64,000 nucleotides of DNA from Oryzomicrobium sp. (GTDB taxonomy: Bacteria > Pseudomonadota > Gammaproteobacteria > Burkholderiales > Rhodocyclaceae), in contig NZ_JAJTBG010000012.1 of NCBI RefSeq assembly GCF_021287045.1, positions 56,560 to 120,559 of the forward strand, given 5' to 3'. The notes under the pieces were generated by a model. It saw only the letters and a program-made list of their open reading frames with translations, was not told the origin of the DNA and searched no databases. Of this stretch, positions 10,065 to 27,674 are shown one piece after another. The position numbers and the translations under genes are program-made. How positions within the stretch are numbered: the first letter of the stretch is position 1; each line of letters opens with the position of its first letter.

Positions 10065-10111
10065 GGACAAACTGTCTCGGACAAAATGTCGCAATCCGTG
10101 ACTTTTTGTCC
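10065..10111. promoter_or_regulatory. GACA/TGTC enhancer array upstream of fdnG
   Basis: Two palindromic boxes, GGACAAACTGTC (10065-10076) and GGACAAAATGTC (10079-10090), and a degenerate third in inverted orientation, GACTTTTTGTCC (10100-10111), are spaced 14 and 21 bases apart. The four half-sites GACA, TGTC, GACA, TGTC start at 10066, 10073, 10080 and 10087, exactly seven bases apart. The array is 60-110 bp upstream of the -24 element, typical for enhancer sites. The middle box recurs upstream of the response regulator gene that starts at 27583. Confidence 0.7.
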
Positions 10112-10161
10112 TAATCGCAACTTAGCAGACATCCAGCGAAATAACGAGCCCAATAACGCGG

Positions 10162-10197
10162 CCGGCCCGCCGGAGGATCAATCTCCATGCGGGCCGG
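10162..10197 (-). terminator. possible terminator after the efflux operon
   Basis: CCGGCCCGC (10162-10170) pairs with GCGGGCCGG (10189-10197), and a GGAG/CTCC pair lies inside the loop. It lies 33 bases after the stop of the last efflux gene. No T tract follows, so termination is uncertain; it may also separate this operon from the fdnG control region. Confidence 0.4.
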
Positions 10198-10229
10198 GGC
10201 GTCATCGAAGAGCGATGAAAATTACGCTT

Positions 10230-11777
10230 TTACTCCATCGGCGGAGGCGCCGCGGCAGCCTTCACCGGCTTGGTCAGCCACACCAGCACCGACAGGCCGA
10301 CGAACATCATCGCCGCCAGGGTGAAGGCGTCCAGGGTGGCCTTGGTCACCGCCTGCTGGTTGAGCAGGCGCTCCACCGTGCCCAGGGCCTGGGCGGCACT
10401 CATGCCCAAGTTCTGCAACCCGGCCAGGGCGCTGTTGAAGGGATCGTTGACGATGGTCATGCGCTCCGCCAGCTCCGAGTGGTGCACCGCCGTCTTATGG
10501 TCCCAGTAGGCCACCGTCAGCGAGGTGCCGAAGCTGCCCCCCAGTACCCGCAGGAAGGTGGCCAGGCCCATGGCCGAAGCCATGTGGCCGGGCGGCACCC
10601 GGGAAACGATGATGGTGGTCAGCGGGGCGAAGAAGCAGGCCAGGGCGATGCCCTGGACGAAGCGCGGCTGGGCCAGGTGCCAGGGATCGACGCCCGGGGT
10701 CAGGTGGCTCTGCCACCAGAAGGTGAAGGCGAACACGGCGAAGGCCAGGGTCACCATCCAGCGCAGGTTGAGGCGGGCCATGTTCTTGCCGATCAGGGGC
10801 GCCAGGATCACCGGCAGCACGCCGATGGGCGCCGAAACGATACCGGCCCAGGTGGCGGTGTAGCCCAGGGTGGTCTGCAACCACAGGGGGAACAGCACCA
10901 CCCCGCCCATGAAGGTCATGTAGCCGAGGCTGATGGCCAGGGTCCCGAAGGCGAAGTTGGGCTCGCCGAACAGGCGCAGGTCCACCACCGGGTGCTCGTC
11001 GGTCAGCTCCCACACCACCAGCAGCGCCAGGCCCAGGGCGGCGATCACCCCCAGGGCGATCACTTCGGGGGATTCGAACCAGTCCAGCTCGTTGCCCTTG
11101 TCGAGCATCAGTTGCAGGGCGCCGACGCCGATCACCAGCAGGGCCAGGCCGATGCGGTCGATGGGCACCTGGGCGGTGCGGCTCTCCCGGGTCTTCAGCA
11201 CCGGCCAGGACAGGGCCACGGCCAGGATGCCCACCGGCACGTTGATGAAGAAGATCCACGACCAGTGGAAGCTGTCGGTGATCCAACCGCCGAGCAGGGG
11301 CCCGGCGATCGGCCCGACCACCGCCACCATCATCGAGATGGCCATGGCCATGCCGCGCTGGTGTGGCGGGTAGGCGCCGAGCATGAGGCTCTGGGCCAGG
11401 GGGAACATGGGCCCGGCGGCCAACCCCTGGAGCACCCGGGCGAAGATGAGGAATTCCAGGCTCTGGGAAAAGCCGCACAACAGCGAGGCGGCGACGAAGG
11501 CCAGGGTCGCCACGGTGAACATGCGCACTTCGCCGAAGCGGCGGGCCAGCCAGCCGGTGAGCGGCAGGGCGATGGCGTTGGCCACGCCGAAGGAGGTGAT
11601 CACCCAGGTGCCCTGGGATGCGCTCACCCCCAAGTCGCCGGCCAGGGTAGGCACGGCCACGTTGGCGATGGTGGTGTCCAGCACCTGCATGAACACCGCC
11701 AGGGACAGCGAAAAGGTGATGAGCCCCCGCGCCCCGCCTTCCAGGGGCGGGCGGTCGTCGTGATGGGCGGCGGCCAT
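10230..11777 (-). CDS. emrB: EmrB/QacA-type drug efflux transporter
   Basis: This is a 515-residue major facilitator protein of the 14-helix DHA2 family, which exports drugs with proton uptake. Family signs are the opening LDTTIANVAVPTLAGDLG, a GRR-type loop (ARRFGEV) after helix 2 and QGLAAGPMFPLAQS with the helix-5 Gly/Pro pattern. The start lies one base after the emrA stop. Together with EmrA and an outer-membrane factor it should form a tripartite pump. The substrate cannot be told from the sequence, and no dedicated regulator is adjacent. Confidence 0.92.
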   Translation of the reverse strand: MAAAHHDDRPPLEGGARGLITFSLSLAVFMQVLDTTIANVAVPTLAGDLGVSASQGTWVITSFGVANAIALPLTGWLARRFGEVRMFTVATLAFVAASLLCGFSQSLEFLIFARVLQGLAAGPMFPLAQSLMLGAYPPHQRGMAMAISMMVAVVGPIAGPLLGGWITDSFHWSWIFFINVPVGILAVALSWPVLKTRESRTAQVPIDRIGLALLVIGVGALQLMLDKGNELDWFESPEVIALGVIAALGLALLVVWELTDEHPVVDLRLFGEPNFAFGTLAISLGYMTFMGGVVLFPLWLQTTLGYTATWAGIVSAPIGVLPVILAPLIGKNMARLNLRWMVTLAFAVFAFTFWWQSHLTPGVDPWHLAQPRFVQGIALACFFAPLTTIIVSRVPPGHMASAMGLATFLRVLGGSFGTSLTVAYWDHKTAVHHSELAERMTIVNDPFNSALAGLQNLGMSAAQALGTVERLLNQQAVTKATLDAFTLAAMMFVGLSVLVWLTKPVKAAAAPPPME

Positions 11778-26052: not shown

Positions 26053-26107
26053 GGGCGGGGCCGGCCGATGGCGGTCGGGAACGCGGGAGAAAACGCAGAC
26101 TGGACGA

Positions 26108-27583
26108 TCACGGCCAGACCCCCCAGGCGGCGCACTTGCGCTCCAGGGTCTTGCGCGACACCTCCAGCAGCCGGGCAGCCTGGGACTTGTTGCCGGCGCA
26201 GCGTTCCAGCACCGCCAGGATGTGGCGCTTTTCCACCTCGGCCAGGGTCGGCACCGGGCCGTCCCCGGCCAGGGCCACCTCCTGCTCCCCTGCCCCGCCG
26301 GCGGCGGCCGCCGCGCCGCGCTGCAACGCATGGCCGGCGCCGCCCAGGGTGTTCAGGGGGAAGGCGCCGAGGATCAGGGAGCGCTGCACGAAGTTCTTCA
26401 GCTCGCGCACGTTGCCCGGCCAGGGGTAGGCCTCCAGGGCCTCGGCCACGGCGGGCGTCACGTCCAGGCGCGGCAACCCCAGCTGCAAGGTGTAGTAGGC
26501 GAGGAAGTGCTCGGTGAGCAGGCGGATGTCGGACACCCGGTTGCGCAGGGGGGCGATGTTGAGGGTGAGCACTTCCAGGCGGTAGAACAGGTCGGCGCGA
26601 AAACGCCCGGCGTTCACCTCGGCAGCCAGATCCTGGTTGGTGGCGGCGATCACCCGCACGTCCACCGGCAGCTCCCGCTCCGACCCCACGGGCCGCACCA
26701 TCCGCTCTTCGAGCACGCGCAGCAGCTTGGTCTGGGCCGCCGGGGGCAACTCGCCGATCTCGTCGAGGAAGATGGTGCCGCCGTGGGCGTAGTAGAACAG
26801 GCCGTTGCGGTTGTCCTTGGCGCCGGTGAAGGCGCCCTTGACGTGGCCGAACAGCTCGGATTCGATCAGGTCGGCGGCGATGGCGCCGCAGTTCACCGGC
26901 ACGAAGGGGCCGCTCGCCCGGGGCGACAGGTTGTGCAGGGCCCGGGCCGCCACCTCCTTGCCTACCCCGGATTCGCCCTGGATCAGCACGGTGGACGGCA
27001 GGGGCGCCACCCGGTGGATCAGGGCGGTCAGCTCGCGCATCGCCGCCGAGGTGCCGATCATGCCGTCCAGGGCGTCGGACACGTCGGCCCGCTCGCGCAA
27101 TTCCCGGCGCAGCACGAAGTTTTCCCGGGCCAGGCGGGTGCGCTCGAAGCTGCGGCGCAGAGCGTTGACCATCTGGTCGAGGCGGAAGGGCTTGAGGATG
27201 AAGTCCGCCGCCCCGGCGCGCAGGGCGTCGATGGCGGTTTCCATGTCGGCGAAGGCGGTGATCAGGATCACGTCGCCGGCGAACGCCGGGTTGCCCGGGG
27301 CCTTCAGCTCCTTGAGCCATTCGATGCCGCTCTTGCCCGGCAGGGAAACGTCCAGGATCAGCACGTCGAAATGCTGGCGGGCCACCCGGGCCATGCCCTC
27401 CTCGGCGCTGCCGGCGGCGGCGAAGGTGCAGCCCCGGGCGGTGAGGGCCCGTTGCAGGAAGGCGCGCATGCCCTCCTCGTCGTCCACCACCAGGACCGAG
27501 TAGCCGGCCCAGGGTGCGGGGGCGCCGGCGACGGCAGGCGGCTGGGCCAGGGGAGAAGCAACGAGGGACGTATCGGCGGTCAT
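26108..27583 (-). CDS. NtrC-family response regulator (sigma-54 activator)
   Basis: The 491-residue protein has a receiver domain with acidic DD at 34-35 and phospho-acceptor about D78 in [11 protein letters not shown], an AAA+ domain with Walker A GESGVGKE (203-210), the sigma-54-contact loop GAFTGA (250-255), Walker B-type [12 protein letters not shown], and a Fis-type helix-turn-helix at the C-terminus ([19 protein letters not shown]). All parts needed to activate sigma-54 polymerase are intact. It is transcribed first, with the kinase 55 bases downstream. A palindrome identical to a box in the fdnG enhancer array lies 65-76 bases upstream of its start. Confidence 0.94.
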
Positions 27584-27637
27584 GGGCGGCGAGGGAGGCT
27601 AATGCGGGTGACAGACGGCGGAGGGGAGCGATTCAAG

Positions 27638-27674
27638 CATGGGGTGAGACATTTTGTCCATGCGCCACCCCATG
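27638..27674. promoter_or_regulatory. GGACAAAATGTC box upstream of the response regulator
   Basis: On the minus strand GGACAAAATGTCTC occupies 27659-27646. The first 12 bases are identical to the box at 10079-10090, and the 14-mer differs at one position from GGACAAACTGTCTC at 10065-10078. The box lies in the spacer of a further inverted repeat, CATGGGGTG (27638-27646) with CACCCCATG (27666-27674). This is a likely autoregulatory operator. Confidence 0.65.

Follow-up and report, generated by a model that had tools for sequence, protein, structure and literature searches.

A kinase and regulator pair predicted to link formate to sigma-54-dependent transcription of formate dehydrogenase genes in Oryzomicrobium and related bacteria

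FhlA of E. coli is a sigma-54 activator that responds to formate by means of a cytoplasmic one-component sensor, and DctB/DctD responds to a dicarboxylate signal and has a transporter as its target. Here we analyzed a 64,000-nucleotide stretch of the genome of Oryzomicrobium sp. (contig NZ_JAJTBG010000012.1, positions 56,560 to 120,559; hereafter the window), in which the gene of an NtrC-type response regulator, accompanied by that of a histidine kinase, is preceded by the same palindrome as fdnG, the gene for the alpha subunit of formate dehydrogenase-N. The regulator resembles FhlA in being a predicted sigma-54 activator and, if the signal has been read correctly, in responding to formate, but it carries a receiver domain and is served by a membrane kinase; DctB/DctD differs from the present system in both signal and target. 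We consider it probable, with good confidence, that the two proteins form a two-component system devoted to formate oxidation, which would activate formate dehydrogenase through sigma-54; DNA binding, activation and ligand are all predicted.

Formate is an important electron donor, yet a search of the accessible papers showed no two-component system assigned to it. In Geobacter sulfurreducens, an RpoN promoter was tested by primer extension at fdnG (GSU0777), and the gene of an enhancer-binding protein lies upstream (PMC2725144). That locus and the one described here have in common a selenocysteine fdnG, a sigma-54 promoter and an upstream activator gene; the accessible part of the Geobacter paper mentions no operator, kinase or signal. 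A 2025 survey, also accessible in part, predicts sigma-54 targets that include formate dehydrogenases (PMC12316311). On the sensory side, the formate chemoreceptors PacF, McpF and Atu0526, as well as the structures 8py0 and 8py1, contain a Cache_3-type module like that of the kinase, although they are chemoreceptors and not histidine kinases. Searches of the open full-text literature on formate dehydrogenase regulation and formate chemoreceptors showed no system of this kind; subscription papers were outside the scope of the search and may describe one. The first-pass annotation, which knew of no described system, is not contradicted by the open full text searched and has to be qualified by the published sigma-54 promoter and upstream activator gene of Geobacter fdnG.

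A palindrome shared by fdnG and the regulator gene

The elements that make up the proposed circuit are as follows.

23818..26052, minus strand: histidine kinase with a periplasmic two-module Cache domain, HAMP, HisKA and HATPase_c (start inferred from homologs)
26108..27583, minus strand: response regulator with a receiver, an AAA+ domain containing GAFTGA and a Fis-type helix-turn-helix (Pfam, translation)
27648-27659, minus strand: operator site GGACAAAATGTC before the regulator gene, 65-76 bases upstream of the ATG at 27583
6868..9939, minus strand: fdnG, formate dehydrogenase-N alpha subunit, with selenocysteine encoded by an in-frame TGA (reading frame; ATG at 9939)
9988..10002, minus strand: sigma-54 promoter-like -24/-12 element CGGCACGTTTGTTGC, 63 bases before the fdnG ATG
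10065-10076, plus strand: operator site 1, GGACAAACTGTC, a variant of GGACAAAATGTC, upstream of fdnG
10079-10090, plus strand: operator site 2, GGACAAAATGTC, upstream of fdnG
10100-10111, minus strand: operator site 3, a degenerate copy, GGACAAAAAGTC, inside a block conserved in genome G042

The regulator contains PF00072, PF00158 and PF02954 above the Pfam cut-off, and the GAFTGA loop is present in its translation; it therefore has the domain set and the loop of an NtrC-type sigma-54-dependent response regulator. None of the named NCBIfam equivalogs reached its own cut-off among the best 25 of the 113 models compared (AtoC, 401 bits against 714; NtrC, 380 against 559; FhlA, NF011958, 221 against 830), and for the pair as a whole the best 25 models listed were only generic NtrC-type and kinase models, all below cut-off. 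The GAFTGA loop and the Fis-type DNA-binding domain noted in the first-pass annotation were confirmed in this way, and its Cache-like periplasmic sensor agrees with the sCache_3_3 match of the kinase in Pfam (2.1e-27) and with the two Cache modules of the structural model.

The palindrome had been reported in the fdnG array and 65-76 bases upstream of the regulator, and both positions were found to be correct, as was the 14-mer GGACAAAMTGTCTC, which is common to the fdnG site at 10065 and the regulator site. The genome comprises 3,914,360 bases in 26 contigs, and GGACAAAATGTC, the exact 12-mer, occurs in it only twice, before fdnG and before the regulator gene. The looser pattern GACAN3TGTC has 48 occurrences and its reversed control 24; only 4 of the 48 have A/T at the center, the other 44 having G or C. 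Three of the four lie in the window and the fourth within a phasin-like reading frame. That the motif is common across the genome, which the annotation had named as a finding that would refute the link, was rejected for the A/T-centered form. A weight matrix was derived from 108 distinct sites upstream of fdnG orthologs, including two sites of the window; its consensus is GGACA-WWW-TGTCC, and it returned three sites of at least 18.7 in the 64 kb, the next best scoring 7.1. Both operator locations are conserved in G042, where the 36-base block 27630-27665 (GCGCATGGACAAAATGTCTCACCCCATGCTTGAATC) that holds the regulator site is identical and the spacer around it has diverged.

The consensus of sigma-54 promoters is TGGCACGN4TTGC. 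The element at 9988-10002, which the annotation had not listed, differs from it at one position, is located between the operator sites and fdnG, and is conserved in G042. Judged by sequence only, the target promoters are of the -24/-12 type with upstream tandem sites, less clearly so at the second formate dehydrogenase cluster discussed below.

Co-occurrence of regulator, operator and formate dehydrogenase genes

To evaluate the link between regulator and operator, we used a set of 395 family genomes, with regulator orthologs taken at E <=1e-135 (present in 145 genomes) and fdnG at E <=1e-200 (111 genomes, 125 matches). Of the 395 genomes, 36 contain the tandem pattern and 4 its reversed control; many A/T-centered pairs are situated immediately upstream of fdnG orthologs. 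Upstream stretches were taken for 118 of the 125 matches, window included; the matches without a start or at a contig end were dropped (G363, G352, G065, G338 and the second matches of G131, G162 and G269), among them that of the regulator-bearing G352, which has a tandem pair near fdnG. The exact site was present in 70 of 74 fdnG upstream regions from regulator-positive genomes and in 5 of 44 from regulator-negative ones, and the reversed pattern in none of the 118; counted by genome over the upstream 400 bp, the palindrome was found in 60/63 with the regulator and 5/44 without it. In the six genera that hold both kinds of genome, 26 of 26 regulator-positive cases had the site against 2 of 22 regulator-negative ones, which argues against mere descent. 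Regulator and fdnG share a contig and lie no more than 20 kb apart in 45 of the 63 genomes; in 18 the distance is no more than 1 kb.

When up to 2 mismatches were allowed, a sigma-54 element was detected in 66/74 fdnG upstream regions of regulator-positive genomes and in 10/44 of the others; the distance from the last site to this element was 60-69 bp in 45 of the 65 regions measured, and paired sites were spaced, center to center, by 14, 19-20, 23, 29-30 or 32-33 bp (43 pairs). These results support the predicted regulator–fdnG link through the operator, as the first-pass annotation had proposed, by co-occurrence, joint absence within genera and neighborhood elsewhere.

Three genomes have the regulator and no site before fdnG: in G134 the sites precede instead a transporter gene of the oxalate/formate family (OFA) adjoining the regulator, G214 has two one-mismatch sites before fdnG, and G028 has the second formate dehydrogenase type on the contig of the regulator, 21 kb away. 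G168 has two fdnG copies, one of which is likewise without the site. Conversely, five genomes have a site without a regulator at the cut-off. G249, one of the two exceptions within the mixed genera, encodes a receiverless regulator homolog (G249:C42:51045-51956) that is 60% identical over residues 173-488; in G383, which lies outside the six mixed genera, the regulator copy is cut by a contig end; in G306 and G093 (87% and 52% complete) a close regulator homolog was looked for and none was found; and the site of G184 has G at its center and is probably due to chance. Receiverless homologs comprising the AAA+ and helix-turn-helix part (51-60% identical) were also observed near the second formate dehydrogenase cluster in three genomes (L209:13888-14862, on the contig of L277; L210:4338-5585; L286:14532-15449).

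Regulator-positive genomes without fdnG often have the pair near this second cluster (FDH2), usually with an operator. FDH2 consists of a polyferredoxin, a peptide targeted by the twin-arginine translocation system (TIGR02811, 43.5 bits, cut-off 48.45), an FdhA-like protein (TIGR01591, 488 bits, cut-off 666) and an FdhB-like protein, and is present in 96/395 family genomes; where regulator and FDH2 occur together, they lie within 20 kb of each other in 44 of 76. Overall, the regulator was found in 136 of the 203 genomes that have one or the other formate dehydrogenase type against 9 of the 192 with neither. In 5 of 6 loci from Methylobacterium or Methylorubrum, and also in two family genomes, sites precede an OFA-family transporter gene near the regulator. 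The OFA genes with an operator, which encode MFS transporters of the oxalate/formate (or lactate) family, are L203:2291-3730, those of the Methylobacterium loci L296, L298, L299, L302 and L304, and a seventh in L215; in six of the seven a sigma-54 element with no more than 2 mismatches is present.

Of the named loci, the top 80 among more than 519 relatives, 53 hold a formate dehydrogenase or OFA gene, and 42 of these have an A/T-centered site; none of the other 27 does. Only 11 of the 27 are present over the full 20 kb, so that a formate dehydrogenase may lie beyond some of them. The 11 linked loci without an exact A/T-centered site belong to Aromatoleum, Azoarcus and Azohydromonas, and the palindromes in Azohydromonas are G-centered; the taxa with both target gene and site include Azospira, Zoogloea, Thauera, Denitromonas, Sulfuriferula, Roseateles, Azospirillum and Methylobacterium. 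On the regulator tree, linkage to formate dehydrogenase requires 13 changes, compared with a mean of 28.3 after shuffling, indicating that it is clustered, yet has been lost or gained repeatedly. In G166, which has the regulator, a perfect tandem GACAAAATGTC pair was observed at L223:6549-6574 (G166:C19:104548-104573), at the junction of a kinase-like and a nosZ-like open reading frame; the latter, with nitrous oxide reductase domains, is possibly a further target.

The annotation had also proposed that the regulator controls itself, for which the support is partial. We examined 116 regulator upstream stretches of 300 bp, from loci that overlap and with some genomes represented twice, and found a site scoring at least 12 in 10. 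Eight of these sit between the regulator and a neighboring formate dehydrogenase or OFA gene; the other two are those of the window genome and of G042. General autoregulation is not supported, since the sites elsewhere fall between the regulator and an adjoining target. Inspection by eye of the region before the regulator gene in the window showed no sigma-54 element. Feedback on the regulator is plausible in this genus only; an unshared upstream site was seen in no other genus.

The sensor domain and the weighing of alternatives

The sensor region of the kinase (371 residues including the membrane helices, numbered from window:24868-25980) was modeled from 53 kinases. The model (predicted local distance difference test score, pLDDT, 92.4) consists of a long helix and two Cache modules. 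When the sensor profile was compared with the PDB, the top two of 23 matched sequences were 8py0 and 8py1, whose titles describe chemoreceptor sensor domains in complex with formate, and the model aligned to them with a root-mean-square deviation of 2.3 over 149 and 136 residues, respectively. Many Cache domains gave a similar Z in the fold search, which is why the sequence profile and the residues carry the weight. R260, T263 and T276 are invariant across the 53 kinases and align with an R-x2-T-x12-T pattern in 8py0 and 8py1; their spacing is that of PacF R142, T145 and T158, which, according to the accessible part of the report, affect formate binding (PMC12501870). The sensor thus shows the fold and sequence kinship of a Cache_3 formate sensor together with its R, T and T ligand residues. 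A formate signal, which the annotation had suggested with a related acid as an option, is favored by inference only, given that the closest solved domains are formate-bound and that the other apparent targets are FDH2 or an OFA transporter; formate is the likely ligand of the kinase.

From these elements we propose that the periplasmic Cache domain of the kinase would bind formate, after which the kinase would phosphorylate the regulator. The latter would bind two or three GGACA-WWW-TGTCC palindromes, the nearest usually 60-70 bp before the -24/-12 promoter, and drive the sigma-54 RNA polymerase to transcribe fdnGHI; fdhE, selA, selB and selC, which follow fdnGHI in gene order, are probably co-transcribed, and the single site ahead of the regulator gene probably gives feedback in this genus. 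The same signal may also set selenocysteine capacity in this genus. In a broader form of the proposal, to which we incline with less assurance, the pair is a general periplasmic formate switch of many Beta- and some Alphaproteobacteria, with its own operator and sigma-54 promoters, wired onto two formate dehydrogenase clusters and an OFA-family transporter, and governing the selenocysteine genes together with the selenoenzyme in this genus. The prediction specifies regulator, operator, promoter, targets and ligand residues, relatives of the system exist in the cultivated Azospira oryzae, Azospirillum brasilense and Methylorubrum, and the parts could be of use for a periplasmic formate sensor.

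Several observations weigh against parts of this proposal. Regulator binding and fdnG activation are predictions from sequence. Where regulator and FDH2 occur without fdnG, they are not within 20 kb of each other in 28 of 72 genomes, drafts included; of 26 entries with the FDH2 polyferredoxin gene, some of them duplicated, 17 have a site of at least 15, and only in 8 of those 17 is it followed downstream by a sigma-54 element that has no more than 2 mismatches. In Aromatoleum and some Azoarcus the sites are weak or absent, and in a Methyloversatilis-type clade of ten regulators no formate dehydrogenase, site or kinase of this type was found in the fetched stretch; G005, a member of that clade, encodes at another locus a kinase that shares the Cache signature. 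As regards the ligand, the R-x2-T-x12-T pattern is present in 15 of 25 Cache_3 matches from 26 related genomes, some of them outside this system, and the matching module is membrane-proximal here, whereas PacF is reported to bind formate at the distal module in the accessible part of PMC12501870. Finally, the two OFA transporters that were scanned match the L-lactate model NF049980 best, one above and one below its cut-off, and another monocarboxylate is therefore possible. The triad was rejected as a private mark of formate on the basis of the same 15 matches; it is missing from 3 of the 5 Cache_3 matches in the window genome. A Cache_3 protein in a similar sequence context (G008:C38:37709, L316) also lacks it and is possibly a relative with another ligand.

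These observations bear on the alternatives to different degrees. That the palindrome of the two promoters is a chance repeat can be dismissed almost entirely: the bare pattern is scattered over the genome, but nearly all of its copies are G/C-centered, the exact 12-mer is restricted to the two promoters, both sites are kept in G042, and the motif precedes fdnG in regulator-positive genomes of 17 out of 19 genera. A different activator could occupy the fdnG sites while the regulator merely travels with fdnG, and the genome does encode five further NtrC-type regulators at E below 1e-80; we regard this as very unlikely, given that motif and regulator are jointly present or absent within genera, that motif and regulator also occur together at FDH2 and OFA genes, and that the regulator-negative, motif-positive G249 has the receiverless homolog. 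Somewhat more room, though still little, is left for the same regulator, operator and targets working with a signal other than formate, either another small monocarboxylate (lactate, glyoxylate, acetate) or oxalate. The lactate-model matches of the OFA transporters fit this possibility, as does the triad being a subfamily signature, but the main linked genes encode formate dehydrogenases of two distinct types, and formate is bound in the closest solved domains.

The fdn cluster and neighboring genes

The genes that follow fdnG on the same strand, in the order fdnH, fdnI, fdhE, selA, selB and tRNA-Sec, are listed below.

5961..6863, minus strand: fdnH, iron-sulphur subunit (open reading frame adjoining fdnG, with homologs beside fdnG in the named loci; named by eye)
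5338..5964, minus strand: fdnI, cytochrome b subunit (open reading frame with homologs beside fdnG and fdnH in the named loci; named by eye)
4220..5170, minus strand: fdhE, formate dehydrogenase accessory protein (NCBIfam TIGR01562, above cut-off)
2720..4189, minus strand: selA (NCBIfam TIGR00474, above cut-off)
749..2713, minus strand: selB (NCBIfam TIGR00475, above cut-off)
542..634, minus strand: selC, tRNA-Sec (ARAGORN and Rfam RF01852)

Long open reading frames on the opposite strand drop out under a codon-position score. A SECIS_3 match was found within fdnG at 9299-9357; the gene is 61-97% identical to the listed family matches, most of which also have the in-frame TGA. Directly upstream of the fdnG array, window 10230-14551 encodes an MFS transporter (Pfam MFS_1) and open reading frames that resemble, by eye, membrane-fusion and outer-membrane efflux proteins. 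Between fdnG and the two-component genes, window 16493-18466 has the appearance, again by eye, of an arsenic-resistance-like cluster with a transporter, an ArsC-like and an ArsR-like protein.

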